Source: Actinobacteria bacterium HGW-Actinobacteria-1
GTDB taxonomy: Bacteria; Actinomycetota; Coriobacteriia; Anaerosomatales; Anaerosomataceae
Reading direction: 5' to 3'
Assembly (NCBI GenBank): GCA_002841355.1
Contig: PHFB01000003.1
Span: 124,001 to 188,000, forward strand
DNA: 64,000 nucleotides
Shown here piece by piece: positions 11,658-49,612 of the stretch (positions within the stretch are counted from its first letter, which is position 1; each line of letters starts with the position of its first letter). The notes beneath the pieces were generated by a model that saw only the letters and a program-made list of their open reading frames with translations, did no database searches and had not been told where the DNA came from. The position numbers and the translations under genes are program-made.

Positions 11658-11709
11658 TCCCTGGAATCGGGAATCCCGGCAGATTTCCCCAGGGCAACAG
11701 AATAGGCAG

Positions 11710-11816
11710 TTCGTCTCCGAGCTCTCCGACCTACAGCGTGGCCGTGCGCCACGGTCCTTGAGCCGATAGGGTGCCACTGGAAACGGTGACGCCTCCCCCC
11801 TTGGAAAGGAGACAAC
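11710..11816 (+). ncRNA. Molybdenum cofactor (Moco) riboswitch, aptamer region
   Basis: The leader of the formate dehydrogenase operon contains CTCCGAGCTCTCCGACC at its 5' side and GACGCCTCCCC...TTGGAAAGGAGA at its 3' side. TCTCC (about 11723-11727) can pair with GGAGA right after the GGAAA. This is the same arrangement as the E. coli moaA Moco RNA, where GCCTCCC, TGGAAAGG and a pairing 5' strand are conserved. GTGGCC/GGTCAC-like and GGTG/CACC hairpins fill the interior. Its position before a molybdopterin enzyme fits known Moco RNA distribution. Boundaries are approximate, and I rely on remembered motif similarity rather than a covariance score. Confidence 0.65.
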
Positions 11817-11888
11817 GCCGACGGGCCCCCCGGCAAAAGGGGTCTGAGGCGTGTCATCTCTGGGGTAAGGGAGGCGAGAGCCTGATAG

Positions 11889-36268: not shown

Positions 36269-36295
36269 TGGTACTATCCGAGTGTTCAGGCAAGC
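36269..36295 (+). promoter_or_regulatory. ccm operon promoter with 12-mer GTTCAGGCAAGC
   Basis: An extended -10 (TGG-TACTAT, 36269-36277) is followed after six bases by GTTCAGGCAAGC (36284-36295), which would be the first twelve bases of the transcript. The hemA promoter at 43921 has the same layout and the identical 12-mer. No clear -35 is present, as is usual for extended -10 promoters. The rest of the ~120-base leader holds two small hairpins (GGCGG/CCGCC near 36305-36321 and GGGCC/GGTCC near 36324-36338). Confidence 0.6.
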
Positions 36296-36406
36296 AGGTG
36301 ACGCAGGCGGTGTTCCTCCGCCCGGGCCATGTCGGTCCGCGGGCGCTCACTCGAGAAGCAATGATGCCGGGTTTCTGCGCGCTCATGCGCGCGAGGGAGT
36401 GAAAAC

Positions 36407-37087
36407 GTGAACAAGCGCGCAAGGCAACGTCTCATCGGTGTGACCGTGATCGTCCTCATCGTCGTCGGTGCTCTGGTCTTCGGAACGACCGTGACCGGAC
36501 TCGGCGGCGCTTACAAGAAGAGCATCGCCGAGATCCGCTCGGATTCGGCGCTCGTTGGCAAGCAGGTGCAAGTTGAAGGCCCGGTCGTCAAGGGCTCATG
36601 GACGCCTGGCGCGACTCCGTTCGTGTTCTCCATCGGCGAGAAGGACGACCCGAACGCCGAGGGCCTCAAGATCGTCTGGGATCGTCCGGTCCCGAGCGCG
36701 TTCGGTGACGGCACCACGGCGATCGTGACCGGTATCGTGAACGAAGACGGATCTGTCACCGCCAAGACGCTCATCACCCAGTGCCCGTCGAAGTACGCCT
36801 CGGCAACCGACGCACTGAGCGTGGACGCGCTTTTGAAGAGCACGCTTGGCGCGGCGACGGTGAAGGTCACCGGCTACATCGTGAACGACAGCATCAAGCC
36901 CGCCGGCTCGGCCGAGCGGTTCTTCGTGGGCACGCTCTCTACGGGTGGCGAAAGCGTGGCCGTTGCGTTCGACGGAGCCCTGCCGCAGGGCATCGTGGAC
37001 GGAGCGAAAGTGGTTATCACCGGCTCACTCGAGGACAACGGCGTGTTCAACGCGACCGATGTCGCTCTTGACGAGGCGCAGAAGTAG
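36407..37087 (+). CDS. ccmE: CcmE heme chaperone, Cys-type, with an extra C-terminal domain
   Basis: A 226-residue protein with an N-terminal membrane helix (about 10-30) and an OB-fold domain (VGKQVQVEGPVVKG...ALVTGIVN-like strands). The heme-binding site reads CPSKY (CxxxY), the cysteine variant found in archaea, some Gram-positives and sulfate reducers, instead of the HxxxY of E. coli. A second OB-like repeat covers residues ~145-226 (VKVTGYIVNDSI...VVITGSLEDNGVF), so the protein is about 80 residues longer than typical CcmE. It carries heme from CcmC to CcmF outside the membrane. It is the first gene of the ccm operon. Confidence 0.88.
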   Translation: MNKRARQRLIGVTVIVLIVVGALVFGTTVTGLGGAYKKSIAEIRSDSALVGKQVQVEGPVVKGSWTPGATPFVFSIGEKDDPNAEGLKIVWDRPVPSAFGDGTTAIVTGIVNEDGSVTAKTLITQCPSKYASATDALSVDALLKSTLGAATVKVTGYIVNDSIKPAGSAERFFVGTLSTGGESVAVAFDGALPQGIVDGAKVVITGSLEDNGVFNATDVALDEAQK

Positions 37088-37141
37088 CAATCCTCTGACA
37101 ACGGTGCGACGTCACGTCGCACGCAGGCGAACGGAGCCAGT

Positions 37142-39199
37142 ATGGATCTGCAGGTTCTCGGCAACAGTCTCCTGGTCATGGCGAGCATCTCGGCGATAGC
37201 GTCGATCGGTGCACTCGCCTTCGCTGCGCTCCCAAACGGCAGCGAAGGTGTCCGCAAAGCGGGGCACTACCTGTCGCTTGCGACGCTCGCATTCACGACT
37301 CTGGCGGTGCTGCTCATCGCCTCCGCGTTCCTCGGCGAGAACTTCACGCTGCAGTACGTTGCCTACAACCACCCGACCACGGTCGGTCCGTGGGCGTGGC
37401 TCTATCGCCTCAGCGGTGTGTGGGCCGGACGTGAAGGGTCGCTCCTGTTCTGGGAATGGCTGCTGGCTGGCTTCGCCGGCTGGGTTGCGATCCGCTTCAT
37501 GAAACAGGGCGAGCGCATTGCGACGGCGGCGCTCGGAATCCTGAACTTTGTGCAGATGTTCTTCCTCTCGGCGTTGTTCATTCCGCTCAACAACCCGTTC
37601 GGGCTGCTGCCTCCGCAGTATCTTGATGCCAACGGGAAGCTTCTTATCGAGGCAGCGATGAGCCCGCTTCTGCAGACGTGGGCCATGGTCGCGCATCCGC
37701 CGACGCTCTTCCTCGGCTATGCGGGACTTGCCGTTCCGTTCGCGTTTGCGATGGCCGCGCTGCTCACCGGCGACACCTCGAAGCGCTGGGTCGAGATCTC
37801 GGACCGCATCACGGTCTTCGCATGGCTGATGCTTGGTATCGGCATCGGGCTTGGCGCCATCTGGGCGTACATTGAACTCGCCTTCGGCGGCTACTGGGCA
37901 TGGGATCCGGTGGAGAACGCATCGATCCTGCCGTGGCTCACGGGCGTCGGTCTCTTGCATTCGATGACGGTGTATCGCAAGCGCGGCGGGTTCCGCGCGT
38001 GGACCATCCTGATGGCGGCGTTCACCTTCGTGTTCGTGCTGCTTGGCACGTTCATCACCCGTTCGGGTGTTGTCAGCTCCGTCCACACCTTCCAGGAAGA
38101 CATGCTCTCGTTCTGGCTGTTCCTCGCGATGATGGTGGGTACGCTCGTCGTGGCTGGAATCGGAGTCGCGATTCGCTGGGACAAGCTCAAGGGCAACGAC
38201 TCGTTCGAGCGAATCTTCTCCAAGGAAGGCTCGTACTACTTCAACAACGTGATCATGCTCATCGCGGCGATCATGGTGGCGTACCTCACTATGGCGCAGG
38301 CATTCCCAACGTGGATGCCAGGTGGCGGCATGACCTTCGGACCCGACACGTTCAACGCGCTTGCCCGTCCGCTTGGCATCTTCTACATCCTCGTGATGTC
38401 GGTGTGCCCGATCCTCTCATGGGGTGGTGCGGGCTGGAATGCGTTCTGGCAGAGAGCCAAGTGGCCGCTCGCCGGAGCTGCGGTGATCGGTACTGGGCTC
38501 ATCGCGGTCTGGGCGTTCGCCATGATGCCGTACTACACCTACGAGCGCGGTATCCCGGCGCTTCACCACGCAACGGCGCTTATCGGTCTGCTGACCGCAT
38601 CACTCGCAATCGCGCTGCCGATCTACCTGTTCATCGACGGTGCTCGCAAGCGGGCAGCGGCGAAGGGCGAGGGCTTCGGCACAGCGCTCTTCCGCATCCT
38701 TACGAAAGCACGCACCCAGTCCGGTGGATACCTCACGCACCTTGGCATGGGCATCATCCTGGTGGGTCTCATCGGTTCGACGATGTACGTTAAGTCGTAC
38801 GAGAACGCGGTACCGCAGACTGTCGGCGCGCCGATCGCCACCGGGACGTACACCTTCACCTTCGAGAGCATCAAGGAAGTGACCGCCGACAACGGCGATG
38901 ACGTCGTGACGGCCACGCTGAACGTGCTTCGCGACGGCAAGCCCGCCGGAACCGTGAAGCCGCGACTCGTGTATCCGATCCAGACCCAGCAAGAGGGTTC
39001 AGCAACGATGAAGGTCGCGCTGATCCAGCAGCCGCTCAAGGACATCTTCATCTCGTTCAACGGAGTGGACCAGGCTGGCAACGCCGTCATCACGATCAAG
39101 TTCTTCCCGATGCAGTGGTGGGTCTGGGCCGGCTTCATCGTCACCATCCTCGGCAGCGGTCTGGCTATGTGGCCGAAGCGCACGCCGCAGGCTGCGTAG
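37142..39199 (+). CDS. ccmF: Cytochrome c heme lyase subunit CcmF
   Basis: A 685-residue membrane protein with about fifteen helices. The WWD heme-handling motif is FGGYWAWDPVENASILPW. The conserved HPP (MVAHPPTLFLGYAG) and the later histidines that ligate heme are present. The C-terminal outside domain (GTYTFTFESIKEVTADNG) is followed by the final helix. It attaches heme to CxxCH motifs of the exported cytochromes. No CcmH, CcmG or CcmI gene is seen in the operon, so thiol reduction must be supplied from elsewhere. It starts 54 bases after ccmE. Confidence 0.95.
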   Translation: MDLQVLGNSLLVMASISAIASIGALAFAALPNGSEGVRKAGHYLSLATLAFTTLAVLLIASAFLGENFTLQYVAYNHPTTVGPWAWLYRLSGVWAGREGSLLFWEWLLAGFAGWVAIRFMKQGERIATAALGILNFVQMFFLSALFIPLNNPFGLLPPQYLDANGKLLIEAAMSPLLQTWAMVAHPPTLFLGYAGLAVPFAFAMAALLTGDTSKRWVEISDRITVFAWLMLGIGIGLGAIWAYIELAFGGYWAWDPVENASILPWLTGVGLLHSMTVYRKRGGFRAWTILMAAFTFVFVLLGTFITRSGVVSSVHTFQEDMLSFWLFLAMMVGTLVVAGIGVAIRWDKLKGNDSFERIFSKEGSYYFNNVIMLIAAIMVAYLTMAQAFPTWMPGGGMTFGPDTFNALARPLGIFYILVMSVCPILSWGGAGWNAFWQRAKWPLAGAAVIGTGLIAVWAFAMMPYYTYERGIPALHHATALIGLLTASLAIALPIYLFIDGARKRAAAKGEGFGTALFRILTKARTQSGGYLTHLGMGIILVGLIGSTMYVKSYENAVPQTVGAPIATGTYTFTFESIKEVTADNGDDVVTATLNVLRDGKPAGTVKPRLVYPIQTQQEGSATMKVALIQQPLKDIFISFNGVDQAGNAVITIKFFPMQWWVWAGFIVTILGSGLAMWPKRTPQAA

Positions 39200-39205
39200 G
39201 CAGCG

Positions 39206-39937
39206 ATGGAGGAGACTCCCAGGAACGATCTCGCCGTCCAGGTCCGGGGACTTACCCGGGCCTTCGGCGTGCGCAAAGCCCTGAACGACGTCAGCTTCGA
39301 GCTGCCGAAGGGCGCGTTCCTGAGCATCTTCGGTCCGAACGGTGCCGGCAAGACGACGTTGGTTAAGGTACTCACGACGCTGCTGAACCCGAGCAAGGGC
39401 ACCGCGAGCGTGCTCGGGTGCGATGTGGTGAGCGAAGCCGTTGAGTTGCGACACCGCATCGGCCTTATCAGCCACAACCCTCTGCTCTATCCGGACCTGA
39501 CCGCCGAGGAGAACCTGCTGTTCTTCGCCGAGATGTACGGTCTCGATGATCCGAAGACCCGCGTTCGTGAGCTTCTGAGCGACGTCGAGCTCGACCATCG
39601 TCGGCTGGATGTCGTGAGCACGTTCTCCCGGGGCATGCTCCAGCGACTTTCGATCGCGCGGGCGCTGCTCCACAAGCCAGACGTGCTCTTCCTGGACGAG
39701 CCGTACTCGGGCCTGGATCCGCATGCGGTGGACATTCTGGATGGACTCATCGCGCAGATTCGCGGAGATCATACATTCGTCATGATCAGCCACGACCTGG
39801 ACAAGGGGCTCGAGCTCTGCTCACACGCGCTGATCCTTGCGAACGGAAAGGTCGTGCTGTTCGAGAATCGCGAAGACATCGACGTCGAGCAGTTCCGTCA
39901 GACATATCGCGCCACCGTGGGCACGGGGGTGGCGTAG
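39206..39937 (+). CDS. ccmA: Cytochrome c maturation ABC transporter ATP-binding protein CcmA
   Basis: A 243-residue ABC ATPase. Walker A is FGPNGAGKTTLVKVL, the signature is FSRGMLQRLSIARALL and Walker B is VLFLDEPYSGLDP, with a switch His in MISHDLDKG. It drives release of heme-loaded CcmE from CcmCD rather than bulk heme export. It lies six bases after ccmF and is followed directly by ccmB with no gap. Confidence 0.9.
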   Translation: MEETPRNDLAVQVRGLTRAFGVRKALNDVSFELPKGAFLSIFGPNGAGKTTLVKVLTTLLNPSKGTASVLGCDVVSEAVELRHRIGLISHNPLLYPDLTAEENLLFFAEMYGLDDPKTRVRELLSDVELDHRRLDVVSTFSRGMLQRLSIARALLHKPDVLFLDEPYSGLDPHAVDILDGLIAQIRGDHTFVMISHDLDKGLELCSHALILANGKVVLFENREDIDVEQFRQTYRATVGTGVA

Positions 39938-40645
39938 ATGGCGAAATCCAACAGTTGGCGCCAGTTCAAAGCGATCCTGCGCAAGGACCTCGTCATGGAG
40001 CTGCGCACCAAAGAGATGATCACCTCGATGGGCCTGTACGCGCTCCTCACGATGGTGGTCTACCAGATCGCACTTGCCGAGGCGGGCGACAGCTTCGATG
40101 TCCGACTCGTCATGCCGGGGCTCATCTGGGTGGCGTTCATCTTCATGTCGATGCTCGGCCTCAATCGTTCGTTCGTCCATGAAAAGGACCAGGGTTGCAT
40201 CGACGCGCTGCTGCTTTCCCCGGTGGACCGTCCGGTGATCTTCTTCGCTAAGTTCGCTGGCAACCTGCTGTTCCTGATGGTGGTCGAGCTCCTATCGTTG
40301 CCCGTCTTCTCGTTCCTGTTTCTGCAGGGTCGCGTGGGCTTCGGTAACCCCGTCTGGCTCATCGGTGTCGTGCTGCTCGGCGCGTCGATCGGCATCTCCG
40401 GCGTTGGCACGCTTCTCGCGACGATGACGGTGAACACCAAGGGCAAGGACGTGATGCTTGCGGTGCTCTTCGTGCCGATCATGTATCCGTTGCTTCGAGC
40501 GGCCGTTGGCGCAACGTTCGCAGCGGTCATCGGAGGACCTGGCACGGTCACGACGTTCTGGCTGTACATGGCGTGGGTAGCGGCCTTCGATGTCATAATG
40601 GTGGCCATCGCCTACGCGCTCTATGAGTTCGTTATCGGTGTCTGA
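39938..40645 (+). CDS. ccmB: Cytochrome c maturation ABC permease CcmB
   Basis: A 235-residue membrane protein with six hydrophobic helices. The N-terminus WRQFKAILRKDLVMELRTKEMI is the usual cytoplasmic coupling segment of CcmB. The loop FVHEKDQGCIDALLLSPVDR is also characteristic. The ATG start is immediately after the ccmA stop. It pairs with CcmA. Confidence 0.92.
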   Translation: MAKSNSWRQFKAILRKDLVMELRTKEMITSMGLYALLTMVVYQIALAEAGDSFDVRLVMPGLIWVAFIFMSMLGLNRSFVHEKDQGCIDALLLSPVDRPVIFFAKFAGNLLFLMVVELLSLPVFSFLFLQGRVGFGNPVWLIGVVLLGASIGISGVGTLLATMTVNTKGKDVMLAVLFVPIMYPLLRAAVGATFAAVIGGPGTVTTFWLYMAWVAAFDVIMVAIAYALYEFVIGV

Positions 40646-40667
40646 CACAGCAAGGAGGGAGCGGACG

Positions 40668-41360
40668 GTGAAGCGAAACCCGCTTGCCGAGATAATGCTC
40701 GGACTGGGTGGTCTGTTGACCACGGCCGCGTTCTTCATGGCGTTCTTCTGGGCGCCCGGGACGTCGTATCCCGACGGTCGTGTGGACTTTGCGCAGAAGA
40801 TCTTCTACTTCCACGTACCGGTGGCGGAGGCGTCGTTCCTCGTCTTCATCTTCACCGCGTTCTACGGCATCCGATTCCTCATGACTCGGGAGCGCATCTA
40901 CGACACCAAGGCTCGCATCGCCACGGAGGTGACGCTGTTCTTCGTGCTCCTCACGATGGCCACGGGTATCCTCTGGACCCGGGTCGAGTGGGGTGTCTGG
41001 TGGCAGTGGGAGCCGAGGCTCACCACGTACTTCATCCTCACCTTGCTCGTCATAGCGTACTTCGTCCTGCGCAACTCGGTTGAGGATGAGGAGAAGCGCG
41101 CCGTGTATGCCTCGGCATTCGGTATCCTGGCGTTCATCGACGCGCCCATCTCGTTCTTCATCACCCGGTGGCTGAACTCGATCCACCCGATCGTCTTCGG
41201 TGGCGGGGAGAGCTCCGGGCTGGAAACGAGCATGCTCATCACCTTCATCGTCGCGCAGGTCGGCATGCTCATGCTCGGCTATGCGTTCTACCAGCTCCGC
41301 CTGCGTGAAGAAGAGCTCAGAGAGCGCCTCGAGGCGCTCAAGATCGAGATCGGAGACTAG
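40668..41360 (+). CDS. ccmC: Heme transporter CcmC, with a WWxWE variant of the tryptophan motif
   Basis: A 230-residue protein with six helices. The tryptophan-rich heme site reads EWGVWWQWEPRLTTYF, where most CcmC proteins have WD in place of WE. The flanking histidines (FYFHVPVAEASF and SIHPIVFGG) are conserved. It places heme onto CcmE. GTG 40668 is chosen because it has AAGGAGGGA eight bases upstream; a longer frame would overlap ccmB. The last ~15 residues are a charged helix (LREEELRERLEALKIEIGD), longer than usual. Confidence 0.92.
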   Translation: MKRNPLAEIMLGLGGLLTTAAFFMAFFWAPGTSYPDGRVDFAQKIFYFHVPVAEASFLVFIFTAFYGIRFLMTRERIYDTKARIATEVTLFFVLLTMATGILWTRVEWGVWWQWEPRLTTYFILTLLVIAYFVLRNSVEDEEKRAVYASAFGILAFIDAPISFFITRWLNSIHPIVFGGGESSGLETSMLITFIVAQVGMLMLGYAFYQLRLREEELRERLEALKIEIGD

Positions 41361-41560: not shown

Positions 41561-42385
41561 TTGGCACAGAGCGCCGTCATACTGTTCTGGTTCGCGACCG
41601 TCGCGTACGTGGCGGCCACGGTGCTGTACGCGTATTTCTTCCTGAGCAAGCGCGCTGCGTACTCCTGGTATGCGACGTTCTTCACGGGCGCCGGCTTCTT
41701 GTGCCATACCGCATCGGTGGGCCTTCGTTCGATCGCCGAGCATGGCACCGACCTGAGTGGACCGAACACCCTCATCCTCTCGGCGTGGGCGCTCGTGTTC
41801 GCCTACTTCGTGGTGGAGCACCTCATCCGGATGAAGGTGTACGGGACGCTGCTCGTGCCCGTCTCGCTTGTACTCATGGCGGTCTCCCAGCTCATGACCG
41901 TGAAGGTCGGCGCTGCCTCACCGCTCGTCGAGAACTGGAAGATCGGCATCCACGTCGCACTGATCGTCTTCGCGAATGCAGGCTTCTTCATTGCCGGCGT
42001 TGGGGCGCTCGCGTACCTGATTCAGGAATCGCAGCTCAAGCGGCACCGTACCAGCGTGCTCTTCAAGCGGCTGCCCTCGCTCGCGAACATCGACCTGCTC
42101 TCGCGGCGCGCGGTTGCGTTCGCGTATCCGGCGTATTCGGCGGGCTTGCTCCTTGGCGTGTTCCGCGCCATCGAGACCGACCCGCCCGGCTGGTGGGCCG
42201 ACCCGCGCGTCATGCTGGCGGGCCTGGTGTGGGGCGTTTTCGGGACGTACATCGTGTTGCACTACACGCAGCGTGCTTCGGCACGGACGACGGCATGGCT
42301 TGCGCTTGCGGGCGTGCTCGCCGTCTCGGTGCTCGCGATCATCGCGCGCACCGTACCCGCTGGCTTCCACGTCTTCGGACTGTAG
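41561..42385 (+). CDS. CcsA/HemX-like cytochrome c assembly membrane protein
   Basis: A 274-residue protein with eight hydrophobic helices, starting at TTG 41561 after GAGGAGG. It belongs to the CcmC/CcsA/HemX superfamily; conserved histidines appear in GFLCHTASVG, IGIHVALIVFA and IVLHYTQRAS. The tryptophan motif is degenerate (PPGWWADPRVMLAGLVWG), unlike the WGSYWSWD of true ResC/CcsA. Its place between ccmD and siroheme/hemA genes matches HemX, which in Bacillus influences glutamyl-tRNA reductase levels. A role at the join between heme synthesis and heme export is inferred. Confidence 0.7.
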   Translation: MAQSAVILFWFATVAYVAATVLYAYFFLSKRAAYSWYATFFTGAGFLCHTASVGLRSIAEHGTDLSGPNTLILSAWALVFAYFVVEHLIRMKVYGTLLVPVSLVLMAVSQLMTVKVGAASPLVENWKIGIHVALIVFANAGFFIAGVGALAYLIQESQLKRHRTSVLFKRLPSLANIDLLSRRAVAFAYPAYSAGLLLGVFRAIETDPPGWWADPRVMLAGLVWGVFGTYIVLHYTQRASARTTAWLALAGVLAVSVLAIIARTVPAGFHVFGL

Positions 42386-42394
42386 GGATACTTC

Positions 42395-43048
42395 GTGCCT
42401 GACTACTCCAAGCCGTATTACCCCGTATTCCTCGACCTCGCCGAGCGGCTCGCCGTGATTGTCGGTGGCGGTGGGGTGGCGGAGCGCAAGGTCGTCACGC
42501 TACTGGAGTACGGTCCACGCGTACGCGTCGTCTCGCCGGACGTCACGCCTGCGCTAGAGAAGCTGGCGGCATCCGGTGCGATCGAGCTTGAACGCCGCGG
42601 CTACGTCCGTGGCGACCTGGATGGCGCCTTCATCGCGATCTGCGCTACCTCTTCCGAGGAAGTGAACCGCGCGGTGCATGCCGAGGCCGAGGAACGTGGC
42701 TGCATCGTGAACGTGGTCGACGTCCCCGAGCTCTGTTCGTTCATCGTGCCCTCGATCGTTCGCCGAGGGACCCTCTCGGTGGCGATTTCAACGGGTGGCG
42801 CCGCGCCTACAGTGGCGAAGCGGCTTCGCAAGCACGTGCAAGAGCACCTCGGTCCCGAGTGGGAGACGTACGTGACGCTGCTTGGTGAGGTGCGCGTGCT
42901 CGTCATGGAGCGCATTCCCGGCGGCGAGGCCGTCCGCAAGCCGATCTTCGAGTCCATCGCGGATTCGGACCTGCTCGACCGCATCCGCGCGGGTGCACGC
43001 CCGACGGCGGATGAGGTCTACGACGAGTTCGTGGGTGATCCGGCGTGA
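42395..43048 (+). CDS. Precorrin-2 dehydrogenase / sirohydrochlorin ferrochelatase (siroheme synthase)
   Basis: A 217-residue Met8p/CysG-N-type enzyme. The NAD-binding fold is at the N-terminus (YYPVFLDLAERLAVIVGGGGVAERK), followed by NVVDVPELCSFIVPSIVRRG and STGGAAPTVAKRLR. It oxidises precorrin-2 to sirohydrochlorin and probably inserts iron to give siroheme, the precursor used by the Ahb route encoded downstream. It starts at GTG 42395, nine bases after the HemX-like gene, and overlaps the SDR gene by four bases. No CysG methylase domain is fused; that activity is in the CobA-HemD protein. Confidence 0.9.
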   Translation: MPDYSKPYYPVFLDLAERLAVIVGGGGVAERKVVTLLEYGPRVRVVSPDVTPALEKLAASGAIELERRGYVRGDLDGAFIAICATSSEEVNRAVHAEAEERGCIVNVVDVPELCSFIVPSIVRRGTLSVAISTGGAAPTVAKRLRKHVQEHLGPEWETYVTLLGEVRVLVMERIPGGEAVRKPIFESIADSDLLDRIRAGARPTADEVYDEFVGDPA

Positions 43049-43884
43049 GAATCGACGGCATTACAGCGATCGTCACCGGCGGCTCAAGCGGCATCGGGCT
43101 TGCGACCGCCGAGCTGCTGGCTGCGCGAGGTGCGAACGTCGCGATCATCGCGCGCGACCCCGAGCGGCTTGAGGCGGCGCGCGAGGCGGTCGCCTGTGCC
43201 CGGCGCGCTGAGTCGCAGCATGTGCTCGCCATCTCCTGCGATGTCTCGGATTACGAGGCCGTGTCCGAGATGGTGCGACGCGTCGAGTCCGAGCTGGGAC
43301 CCGTCGACCTGCTGATGGCGTGCGCGGGCTTCTGCACGCCGATGCGCTTCACCGAGCTCCCGATCGAGGAATTCCAGGCGCACATCGACACCAACCTTCT
43401 CGGTGTGACGTACCCCGCACGGGCAGTAGCACCGGGAATGATGGCGCGCGGTCGCGGCCACATCGCGATGGTGTCGTCGATGGGCGGTTTCGTCGGCGTC
43501 TACGGCTACTCGGCGTACAGCCCCGCGAAGTTCGGCGTCATGGGACTTGCCGAGGTGCTCCGCAGCGAGCTCAAGCCGTATGGCATTGGCGTGACGGTGC
43601 TCTGCCCGCCAAATGTCGACACGCCCGGCTACGCCCGCGAAGTGAGCATCGAGCCCGCCGAGACAGCCAAGATCAACGGCGGTGCGAAGACCGTATCCCC
43701 GGCCGAGATGGCCAAGCGGTTCGTGGCGGCTGTGGAGCGGAACAAGTATCTGGTCGTTCCGGGACTAACGAACGCGATTCTGTACCGCCTCAAAGGAGTC
43801 CTGCCGGAGCTGTTCTTCGCGGTCTTCGACGGCGACATCGCATCCGTGGGGAAGCAAGGGAAGGCGGTCGCTGATGAGTCCTGA
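43045..43884 (+). CDS. Short-chain dehydrogenase/reductase
   Basis: A 279-residue classical SDR. The cofactor loop is TGGSSGIGLATAE, a structural NAG-like motif appears as ACAGF, and the catalytic Ser and YxxxK are in MVSSMGGF and YSAYSPAK. An Arg in IIARDPERL suggests NADPH preference. The C-terminal hydrophobic part (ILYRLKGVLPELFFAVF) and overall length resemble 3-ketodihydrosphingosine-reductase-like SDRs. Its substrate is unknown. It overlaps the siroheme synthase gene (GTGA), yet no SDR step is known in heme synthesis, so the link may be only operonic. Confidence 0.8.
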   Translation: MRIDGITAIVTGGSSGIGLATAELLAARGANVAIIARDPERLEAAREAVACARRAESQHVLAISCDVSDYEAVSEMVRRVESELGPVDLLMACAGFCTPMRFTELPIEEFQAHIDTNLLGVTYPARAVAPGMMARGRGHIAMVSSMGGFVGVYGYSAYSPAKFGVMGLAEVLRSELKPYGIGVTVLCPPNVDTPGYAREVSIEPAETAKINGGAKTVSPAEMAKRFVAAVERNKYLVVPGLTNAILYRLKGVLPELFFAVFDGDIASVGKQGKAVADES

Positions 43885-43899
43885 AATGGCCTCCGCGCG

Positions 43900-43929
43900 T
43901 TGTTCGCGACCCCTCTCAAATGCTACGAT
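43900..43929 (+). promoter_or_regulatory. hemA promoter, extended -10
   Basis: TTGTTC (43900-43905), 18-base spacer and TGC-TACGAT (43921-43929) form an extended -10 promoter. The predicted start is 43936, the first base of GTTCAGGCAAGC, six bases after the -10 exactly as at the ccm promoter. Confidence 0.6.
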
Positions 43930-43935
43930 GCTTTC

Positions 43936-44063
43936 GTTCAGGCAAGCGCACATGGTGCGTTCTATAGCGTTTTACACCGCCCCCGCCGGGCCTGCTTGCC
44001 TGAACAACAACGCACCGCACCGGCGGGGGCGACCCATGCCCCTACACACGACGTCTGGTCGTG
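43936..44063 (+). promoter_or_regulatory. hemA leader with two interleaved 12-bp inverted repeats (predicted pseudoknot)
   Basis: GTTCAGGCAAGC (43936-43947) is perfectly complementary to GCTTGCCTGAAC (43994-44005). CGCCCCCGCCGG (43978-43989) is perfectly complementary to CCGGCGGGGGCG (44020-44031). The order is A, B, A', B', so the two helices interlock as an H-type pseudoknot. CGCAC-atg-GTGCG (43947-43959) is a small hairpin inside. A last hairpin CACGAC/GTCGTG (44047-44063) abuts the GAGG Shine-Dalgarno region before the hemA ATG. I know of no named class with this layout. The A/A' pair could alternatively be two DNA operator sites. Confidence 0.65.
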
Positions 44064-44082: not shown

Positions 44083-45450
44083 ATGCATCTGATCCTTGTC
44101 GGTCTGAGCCATAAGACCGCGCCTATCGAGATTCGGGAGCGGCTGACCTTCCCTGCCCACAAGCAGGCGGAGGCGCTAGCGCTTCTCACCTCTCAGGATG
44201 CGATTGCCGAGGCGGTGATCGTCTCCACGTGCAACCGCACTGAGATCTACGCGGTCGCCTCGGGTGGGGACGAGGGCGTGGATGCAGTCATCGATTTCAT
44301 GACCGAGTACCACTCGCTCGACCGTCACGAGCTCGTGCGCTCGCTCTACCTGAATCACGGCGAGAGCGTCGTCCGGCACCTGTTCCGGGTCGTCGCGTCG
44401 CTCGACTCGATGGTGATCGGCGAGGCGCAGATTCTCGGCCAGGTCAAAGAGGCGTACGATCACGCGCTCAACAACGGCGCTACCGGCAAGGTGTTCAACA
44501 AACTCTTCCGACAGAGCTTCGAGGTGGGCAAGCGCGTCCGCACCGAGACGGAGATCGGCGAGAATGCCGTTTCGATCAGCTACGCTGCCATCGAGCTTGC
44601 GAAGAAGGTCTTCGACACGCTTGAGGGCCGCACGATCCTCGTGCTTGGCGCCGGCAAGATGAGTGAGCTTACCGCAAAGCACCTCGTGAGCCAGGGTGTG
44701 AAGAGCGTGCTCGTCGCGAACCGCACCTTCGAGCGCGCGCAGGAGCTTGCCGAGCGCTTCAACGGCGAGGCCATCCGCTATGACGATCTCTACGAGCGCA
44801 TGCATGACGCCGACATCGTCATCTCCTCCACTGCAGCCACGCACTACGTGATCACCAAGGAGCACGTGGCGCAATCCATGCGCGGGCGTGGCGGACGGCC
44901 GCTCTTCCTCATCGATATCGCTGTGCCGCGCGACATCGAGCCTGCGGTGAACGAGCTCGGCAACGTATTCCTCTACGACATCGACGACCTCTCCGGTGTT
45001 GTGGAGTCGAACCTCGAGGAGCGCATGCGCGAAGCGCGGCGCGCGGAGGTCATCATCGAAGACGAGTTTGCGGCCTTCGCGCGGTGGCGCGAGTCGCTTG
45101 AGGTGCAGCCGACGGTTGCCGCCATCCGCGCGCGTGCCGACGTGATCCGTCAGGCGGAACTCGAGAAGGCGTGCAAGCGCCTCGGGAACCTCTCGGAGAA
45201 GGACCTTGAGACCATCAACGCGCTTACCTGCGCGATCGTGAACAAGATGCTGCATGGCCCGACACAGCGCCTCAAGCAGGCTGCCGAGGCCAAAGATGGC
45301 TACGAGTACATCGAGACGGCCCGGCATCTGTACGGGCTGGACGAGAGCGAGGGTCGCGGTCACGGCAAGCTGCGCGACCTGCTAAACCGGCGCACCAAGG
45401 ACGTCGTTGAGACCGCGGGGAACGAGATGGGAGATTCGCTTGGGTGCTGA
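44083..45450 (+). CDS. hemA: Glutamyl-tRNA reductase
   Basis: A 455-residue enzyme that reduces glutamyl-tRNA(Glu) to glutamate-1-semialdehyde, the committed step of tetrapyrrole synthesis. The N-terminus MHLILVGLSHKTAPIEIRER is standard; the catalytic Cys50 is in STCNRTEIYAV. The NADPH fold is at ILVLGAGKMSELTAKHL, and the C-terminal dimerisation helix follows. Length is normal, and the ~25 C-terminal residues after GRGHGKLRDL are basic and probably disordered. The long, highly structured leader suggests that this gene is the control point. It overlaps hemC by 11 bases. Confidence 0.96.
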   Translation: MHLILVGLSHKTAPIEIRERLTFPAHKQAEALALLTSQDAIAEAVIVSTCNRTEIYAVASGGDEGVDAVIDFMTEYHSLDRHELVRSLYLNHGESVVRHLFRVVASLDSMVIGEAQILGQVKEAYDHALNNGATGKVFNKLFRQSFEVGKRVRTETEIGENAVSISYAAIELAKKVFDTLEGRTILVLGAGKMSELTAKHLVSQGVKSVLVANRTFERAQELAERFNGEAIRYDDLYERMHDADIVISSTAATHYVITKEHVAQSMRGRGGRPLFLIDIAVPRDIEPAVNELGNVFLYDIDDLSGVVESNLEERMREARRAEVIIEDEFAAFARWRESLEVQPTVAAIRARADVIRQAELEKACKRLGNLSEKDLETINALTCAIVNKMLHGPTQRLKQAAEAKDGYEYIETARHLYGLDESEGRGHGKLRDLLNRRTKDVVETAGNEMGDSLGC

Positions 45451-49413: not shown

Positions 49414-49489
49414 GGGGATGTAGCTCAGCTGGGAGAGCGCTGCGTTCGCAACGCAGAGGTCGGCGGTTCGAGCCCGCTCATCTCCACCA
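49414..49489 (+). tRNA. tRNA-Ala (anticodon CGC), CCA encoded
   Basis: A 76-base cloverleaf. Acceptor arm GGGGATG pairs with CATCTCC (one G-U). The D arm is AGCTCAGCTGGGAGAGC, the anticodon stem CTGCG/CGCAG has loop TTCGCAA (anticodon CGC at 49447-49449), and the T arm carries GGTTCGAGCCC. The discriminator A and CCA are encoded at 49486-49489. Confidence 0.95.
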
Positions 49490-49500
49490 ACGGATGCGAT

Positions 49501-49534
49501 GTCGAGGCGGCCTGCACGTGCAGGCCGCCTCGAC
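49501..49534. repeat. 34-bp perfect palindrome after the tRNA
   Basis: GTCGAGGCGGCCTGCAC is followed directly by its exact reverse complement, giving 17-base arms with no spacer. As RNA it makes a very stable hairpin 12 bases after the tRNA. There is no U tract, so it is either a non-canonical terminator/processing signal or a DNA-level site. Confidence 0.7.
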
Positions 49535-49612
49535 TGCTTCAATCGGCCGGCAGGCCGCAGGGTCATGTAGGTGTGGCGACATGGGGTCGCACAGGATGAG
49601 GGGAGCGGTTCG

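Follow-up and report, generated by a model that had tools for sequence, protein, structure and literature searches.

The gap ahead of hemA, the gene for glutamyl-tRNA reductase, in a 64,000-nt stretch of an Actinomycetota genome (hereafter the window) carries two perfect 12-bp inverted repeats whose arms are interleaved. A sequence-only reading of this DNA had seen in them a pseudoknotted and possibly new regulatory RNA, which could serve as a ligand- or protein-responsive switch on the committed step of heme synthesis. Is such an RNA real, and with what does it pair?

Inverted repeats and fold of the hemA leader

Both repeats, designated P1 and P2, are exact at the positions first assigned to them and follow the order of a pseudoknot. 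Their rarity was also confirmed: when the 198-nt gap was shuffled 20,000 times with its dinucleotides preserved, one 12-bp repeat arose in 12 shuffles and two in none. The whole window has just three perfect 12-bp inverted repeats whose gap does not exceed 60 nt, namely P1, P2 and a site following tRNA-Ala. The latter (49501-49535, about 15 bp) lies directly 3' of the tRNA gene (49414-49489) and is perhaps a terminator. A third crossing pair in the leader, b/b' (43954-43961/44009-44016), had been overlooked; along the leader, the strands run a b c a' b' c'. The features of the hemA region are as follows.

43900-43905 and 43924-43929, + strand: predicted hemA promoter (TTGTTC, 18-nt spacer, TACGAT; from sequence), predicted start 43936
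43936-43947 and 43994-44005, + strand: arms of P1, GTTCAGGCAAGC and GCTTGCCTGAAC, exact 12-bp match
43978-43989 and 44020-44031, + strand: arms of P2, CGCCCCCGCCGG and CCGGCGGGGGCG, exact 12-bp match
43936-43947, + strand: a, the 5'-terminal tag GUUCAGGC(AAGC) and 5' arm of P1, with an 8-nt core at 43936-43943; P1 covaries across classes
43954-43961, + strand: b, GGUGCGUU, partner of b' in the third crossing helix; 91% paired, in the order only
43978-43989, + strand: c, the 5' side of P2, the carrier hairpin; across the class, compensation at 10 of 12 pairs
43991-44005, + strand: antisense loop CCUGCUUGCCUGAAC, consisting of a' and a 5' extension and containing the 3' arm of P1; nearly invariant in Coriobacteriia copies
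44009-44016, + strand: b', AACGCACC, pairs with b
44020-44031, + strand: c', the 3' side of P2, the carrier hairpin; covariation
44083-45450, + strand: hemA, glutamyl-tRNA reductase (Pfam GlutR_N, Shikimate_DH, GlutR_dimer)

The predicted promoter would set the start of the hemA transcript at 43936, so that strand a would constitute the extreme 5' end of the mRNA. The succession of -10 box, 6-8 nt and GTTCAGGC is conserved in the order Anaerosomatales (class Coriobacteriia), to which the window genome belongs.

Folding of the single leader sequence was uninformative (z -1.3), and an alternative register, in which 43943-43990 would pair, is confined to one clade. The simultaneous formation of P1, P2 and b/b' is sterically doubtful, and the b/b' helix may preclude the coexistence of P1 and P2 in one molecule. 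The further hairpin that had been noted near the ribosome-binding region of hemA (44047-44052/44058-44063) is present in the sequence. Comparable hairpins, judged by eye, occur in many genomes of the same family and are missing from other families; the hairpin is outside the conserved core.

Three other explanations of the leader were discarded. An intrinsic terminator in the window copy would call for a U-run 3' of c', and there is none; a coding function is at odds with single-base length differences in the conserved core. In a switch between c and the Shine-Dalgarno region of hemA, c could pair with GGCGAG in some of these regions, yet the Shine-Dalgarno sequence of f1 ignores changes in c.

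Conservation and covariation of the leader RNA

The leader was detected upstream of hemA in 57 of the 61 searched genomes of the order (the window genome counted), as one copy per genome, with DNA matches that were 76-98% identical and best conserved in the central 60 nt. By named public records, these genomes belong to the Coriobacteriia, and a part of them carry the label Anaerosomatales. In this order, c/c' pairs completely (100%) and shows compensatory changes, P1 is nearly invariant, and b/b' is 91% paired, three of its pairs being changed on both sides, with support restricted to the order. A covariance model recovered divergent copies in other orders of the Coriobacteriia, and the rebuilt model detected copies in further families belonging to other classes of the Actinomycetota; the E-values of these models are rough owing to a shortened calibration.

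When the divergent copies of the class were included, 99.1% of the c/c' cells were paired and 10 of the 12 pairs were changed on both sides (0 of 500 shuffles). P1 covaries in cis across classes, from C-G to U-A in 11 sequences, from G-C to A-U in four and from U-A to C-G in one, in an alignment that included copies from outside the class and rested on a model without P1. The interleaved helices of an H-type pseudoknot therefore both covary, with three double-changed pairs in P1 and nine in P2. Comparative sequence evidence thus shows both the hairpin and the cis pairing, and the compensatory changes in related genomes bear out the interleaved helices that had been proposed from a single sequence.

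The suggestion that the RNA is new was also supported. Comparison with Rfam 15, T-box and known riboswitches included, gave no relevant match for the leader or its distant homologs at either gathering or permissive thresholds (E up to 10), and no description of such an RNA was found in the open-licence literature. Judged from these comparisons, the folded RNA ahead of hemA is real and previously undescribed. Elsewhere in the window (11704-11827, + strand), a Moco (molybdenum/tungsten cofactor) riboswitch, Rfam RF01055, was identified with 64.7 bits.

Forms and contexts of the hairpin

The conserved unit, according to the aligned sequences, is the 12-bp hairpin with the loop CCUGCUUGCCUGAAC, and it is broader than the hemA leader. 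The hairpin occurs in leaders of hemA and of the cytochrome c maturation (ccm) genes, as an intercistronic element, as a 3'-end element in genomes without detected hemA, and in apparent sRNA genes of two families (f74 and f93). It is located in cis upstream of the presumably regulated gene in the order and in f17, f46, f87 and f96, and otherwise in f21, f74 and f93. The hairpins of f20 and f21 have no 5' arm next to them and a re-sequenced stem, yet the loop UUGCCUGAACA (UUACCUGAACA in two) is retained; the 5' arm likewise does not adjoin the hairpin in f74 and f93.

No hemA gene was found in a search of f21, where the hairpin is positioned directly 3' of ccmC and a small ccmD-like gene. In two of these genomes (G081 and G077) a terminator-like hairpin lies downstream of the conserved one, and at the single locus read closely, that of G081, no same-strand gene follows. 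Only in f21 genomes does the element stand at the 3' end of the operon to whose 5' region it is complementary. The presence of the hairpin after ccmC in the absence of hemA led to the search for another partner. In f46 only a cis form on ccm was detected, and a second tagged site was looked for with none that made sense; trans action is therefore not universal.

These contexts bear on the notion of a cis-acting riboswitch, in which the pseudoknot would be an aptamer that recognises heme, siroheme or a signal akin to them and would control hemA (in f46 also ccm) by uncovering or masking a terminator or ribosome site. Such a switch would agree with a cis pseudoknot whose helices both covary, with associated genes that are all heme-related, and with two individual hemA leaders: in G611 a terminator is located right at c', and in G064 (L154) c' (CCGAGGGGGAU) lies 8-9 nt ahead of the hemA ATG, such that the hairpin would cover the likely Shine-Dalgarno sequence. 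There would also be a place for it, as a 2022 review, according to which no heme riboswitch is known, lists this class as conspicuously absent (PMC9971707). Against it stand the hairpins of f20, f21, f74 and f93, devoid of an adjoining 5' arm, and the G081 locus, where no same-strand gene follows. Of the original proposal, the conserved new hemA leader RNA with interleaved helices was retained; no support emerged for the ligand- or protein-responsive switch. The hairpin also occurs in genomes without detected hemA and in apparent sRNA genes.

A shared tag at the predicted 5' end of the ccm mRNA

The loop strand, conserved in other orders even where no 5' arm adjoins it, would owe this conservation to its partner, the ccm mRNA 5' end. 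The corresponding features of the window are listed here.

36272-36277, + strand: TACTAT, the -10 box in the promoter of the ccm operon (from sequence; conserved)
36284-36298, + strand: GUUCAGGCAAGCAGG, the tag with which the ccm mRNA is predicted to begin; complementary to 43991-44005 at every position
36407-41360, + strand: ccmE, ccmF, ccmA, ccmB and ccmC, cytochrome c maturation (Pfam, ORFs)
41561-42385, + strand: CcsA/HemX-like gene, between the ccm genes and hemA (Pfam, ORFs)
42395-43048, + strand: siroheme synthase domain protein, between the ccm genes and hemA (Pfam, ORFs)
43045-43884, + strand: SDR, the last gene before hemA (Pfam, ORFs)

A second GTTCAGGCAAG is found at position 36284, 7.6 kb upstream of the hemA leader and immediately 3' of the ccm -10 box; several other GTTCAGGCAAG sites were set aside as coding or unrelated. 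Both the hemA mRNA (in cis) and the ccm operon mRNA are predicted to begin with the 8 nt GUUCAGGC. The ccm tag is conserved at the identical spot after the -10 box in the order, and the predicted ccm mRNAs of f17, f20, f21, f74, f93 and f96 also open with GUUCAGG or a variant.

In the window genome, the loop and the ccm mRNA 5' end are complementary at 15 of 15 positions; when 12,794 30-mers were sampled from the window, this 5' end proved the best sense partner of the loop, and structure prediction leaves its first 12 nt unpaired. Across 35 genomes, all 280 pairs between the loop and the 8 nt that open the ccm mRNA are standard, and the full 15/15 pairing is reached in 21 of these genomes. 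Permutation of the partners equalled the observed pairing 3 times in 10,000, a figure that overstates independence since the genomes are related and the independent events fewer. Pairing in cis on hemA is mostly shorter in the order (9-13 nt in a row), and is degraded in G007 and G011.

Comparative evidence for the trans complementarity includes compensatory changes between separate loci in three lineages. In G677 the loop reads GGAC and the ccm tag, on another contig, GUCC, the cis arm being changed as well; in G064 and G083 a UACC loop is matched by a GGUA tag; and in f74/f93 a change at position 15 is compensated. By the sequences and predicted starts, the loop is thus complementary to the extreme 5' end of its target mRNAs, as in mechanisms of the RoxS/FasX type. 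Pairing with the ccm tag would explain the conservation of the loop, which a ligand pocket does not, and we regard the cis-acting riboswitch, the chief rival, as unlikely. Somewhat less likely still is an RNA that senses heme or a porphyrin and whose aptamer would come together either on the hemA mRNA alone, in cis, or by joining the ccm mRNA 5' end, in trans; if true, such a two-message riboswitch would be the first natural one of the heme class.

The identical tag just 3' of the -10 box at both hemA and ccm could alternatively reflect DNA recognition, with GTTCAGGC as a transcription factor site at +1 of both units and the inverted leader copy as a second site; a change of specificity could then account for G677. 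The inverted copy is, however, always in an RNA hairpin loop with a compensated stem, also at terminators and operon ends. Moreover, the uncompensated transitions at tag positions 1-13 retain G-U pairs in 32 of 32 cases and never produce A-C, and therefore fit RNA pairing better than a DNA operator, which we consider very improbable.

In G000 (G000:C21:140216; L201:417), GTTCAGGCAAGC precedes, by about 20 nt, the likely Shine-Dalgarno region belonging to a gene for a membrane-anchored protein of about 180 amino acids. The same site precedes this gene in G001, G003, G004, G006, G008 and G009, and the gene is a possible further antisense target.

Co-occurrence of tag and hairpin

In 13 ccmE-containing genomes that lack the hairpin, the tag is also absent: G040 of the order, three members of one f20 genus, eight of f19 and one of f22. 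G040 (L158, L369), which is 99% complete and contains both hemA and ccmE, represents a natural double loss. The tag without a detected hairpin was observed in three genomes, G071 and the clearly incomplete G034 and G075; in G611, which has the hairpin, a search near ccmE revealed no tag. The joint absences indicate that hairpin and tag are mostly retained or missing together, and they cluster in few lineages.

Apparent stand-alone RNA genes

The hairpins of f74 and f93 are intrinsic terminators; upstream of them, all four genomes have TTGAT(T/C), 17 nt and TAnnnT, and the predicted RNA is 72-99 nt long. By their predicted promoter and terminator, these copies appear to be independent sRNA genes. 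That of G659 (L291) is flanked by moaC- and moaB-like genes (so named from their sequences); in G732 (L290) a moaB-like gene lies directly 3' of the stand-alone RNA. The tag opens hemA (at predicted starts) and the presumed first gene of the ccm operon in G544, G650 and G659, as well as a TlpA/ResA-like thioredoxin gene in G650 and G659, which in G659 is followed by a CcdA-like gene (both named from sequence motifs). The ccm, hemA and resA-like leaders of these families (L348, L349, L353, L350, L365, L367, L351) have terminator-like hairpins, the loops of which have diverged and can partly pair with their own tag. There are hints of attenuation at the tagged leaders. In the window genome no free short RNA was predicted, there being no U-run after c', and the hemA leader would therefore act within the mRNA or after processing.

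The stand-alone copies weigh on two further readings. Binding of a protein to the leader, e.g., autoregulation by glutamyl-tRNA reductase, would suit a compact, structured and strongly conserved leader ahead of a single enzyme gene, but the element also exists without detected hemA and as apparent stand-alone RNAs, its stem sequence is freely replaced, and pairing accounts for the constraint on the loop; we consider such binding the most improbable reading of all. Long-range pairing within one polycistronic ccm-to-hemA mRNA, which would protect or circularise the message without acting in trans, is suggested by f20 and f21, in which the same operon opens with the tag and is followed by the hairpin. 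It is disfavoured by the predicted promoter and terminator of the f74/f93 hairpins, by G079 and G677, whose hairpin and ccm tag are on different contigs, and by the predicted hemA promoter of the order. As a general explanation, it has a small chance of being correct.

A model for 5'-end capture

The reading that we favour, with a probability of about two in three, is that of a new Actinomycetota antisense RNA family that coordinates heme synthesis with cytochrome c maturation via capture of mRNA 5' ends. RNA pairing probably enables these bacteria to tune heme synthesis and cytochrome c assembly jointly. The GC-rich, 12-bp carrier hairpin c/c' would present the loop CCUGCUUGCCUGAAC, which would pair with the tag GUUCAGGC(AAGCAGG), the very first bases of mRNAs for heme and cytochrome c biogenesis. 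Within the hemA transcript itself, the tag would be engaged in cis to form the pseudoknot, and the ccm mRNA would be paired in trans, or over a long range within one operon mRNA. As the hemA leader of the window holds both tag and loop, it could either close on itself as a pseudoknot or pair with the ccm mRNA. Capture would set the fate of the target mRNA and couple the supply of heme to cytochrome c maturation, most likely through protection of the target 5' end from degradation, and by leader attenuation in lineages whose hairpin is a terminator. We infer the trans action in the window genome, the direction of control, its trigger and the start sites; the latter, together with RNA ends and lengths and co-transcription, are predictions.

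If true, this would be, within the literature searched here, the first case in which an RNA-based regulon of Actinomycetota is described that joins heme synthesis to cytochrome c maturation; several of its mRNAs would share a 5'-terminal tag read by one conserved antisense loop. Since leader, intercistronic, 3'-end and stand-alone forms coexist, the path between cis leader and trans sRNA would be traceable in living lineages, and the compensation between separate loci renders the mechanism directly testable by swap mutants.

Comparison with known systems

In pseudoknot riboswitches of the SAM-II and preQ1 types, a short leader ahead of a biosynthetic gene contains two helices that interleave. 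The hemA leader resembles them in this respect, and differs in the lack of an Rfam match and in the many members without one pseudoknot arm in cis.

Control of heme or cytochrome genes by sRNAs, predicted here, is reported for iron sRNAs of the IsrR and RyhB type (PMC12607789, PMC5826389). Those RNAs are iron-regulated and from other phyla; no sequence link was seen, and their abstracts report no conserved 5'-terminal tag.

OppZ and CarZ of Vibrio cholerae, which arise at operon ends by RNase E cleavage, pair with the mRNA of their own operon and inhibit translation (PMC7398697). The f21 copies at the end of the ccm operon are similarly placed; their target, in contrast, would be the extreme 5' end.

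A parallel in mechanism is provided by RoxS-yflS in Bacillus subtilis and FasX-ska in Streptococcus: the sRNA base-pairs at the very 5' end of its target mRNA, which blocks RNase J1 and raises expression (PMC5419742). The position of the pairing, predicted here, is alike, and no relationship was revealed by any test made. Unlike these systems, the present element also occurs in cis on hemA, and a single loop would read a 5' tag shared by the hemA, ccm and resA-like mRNAs.
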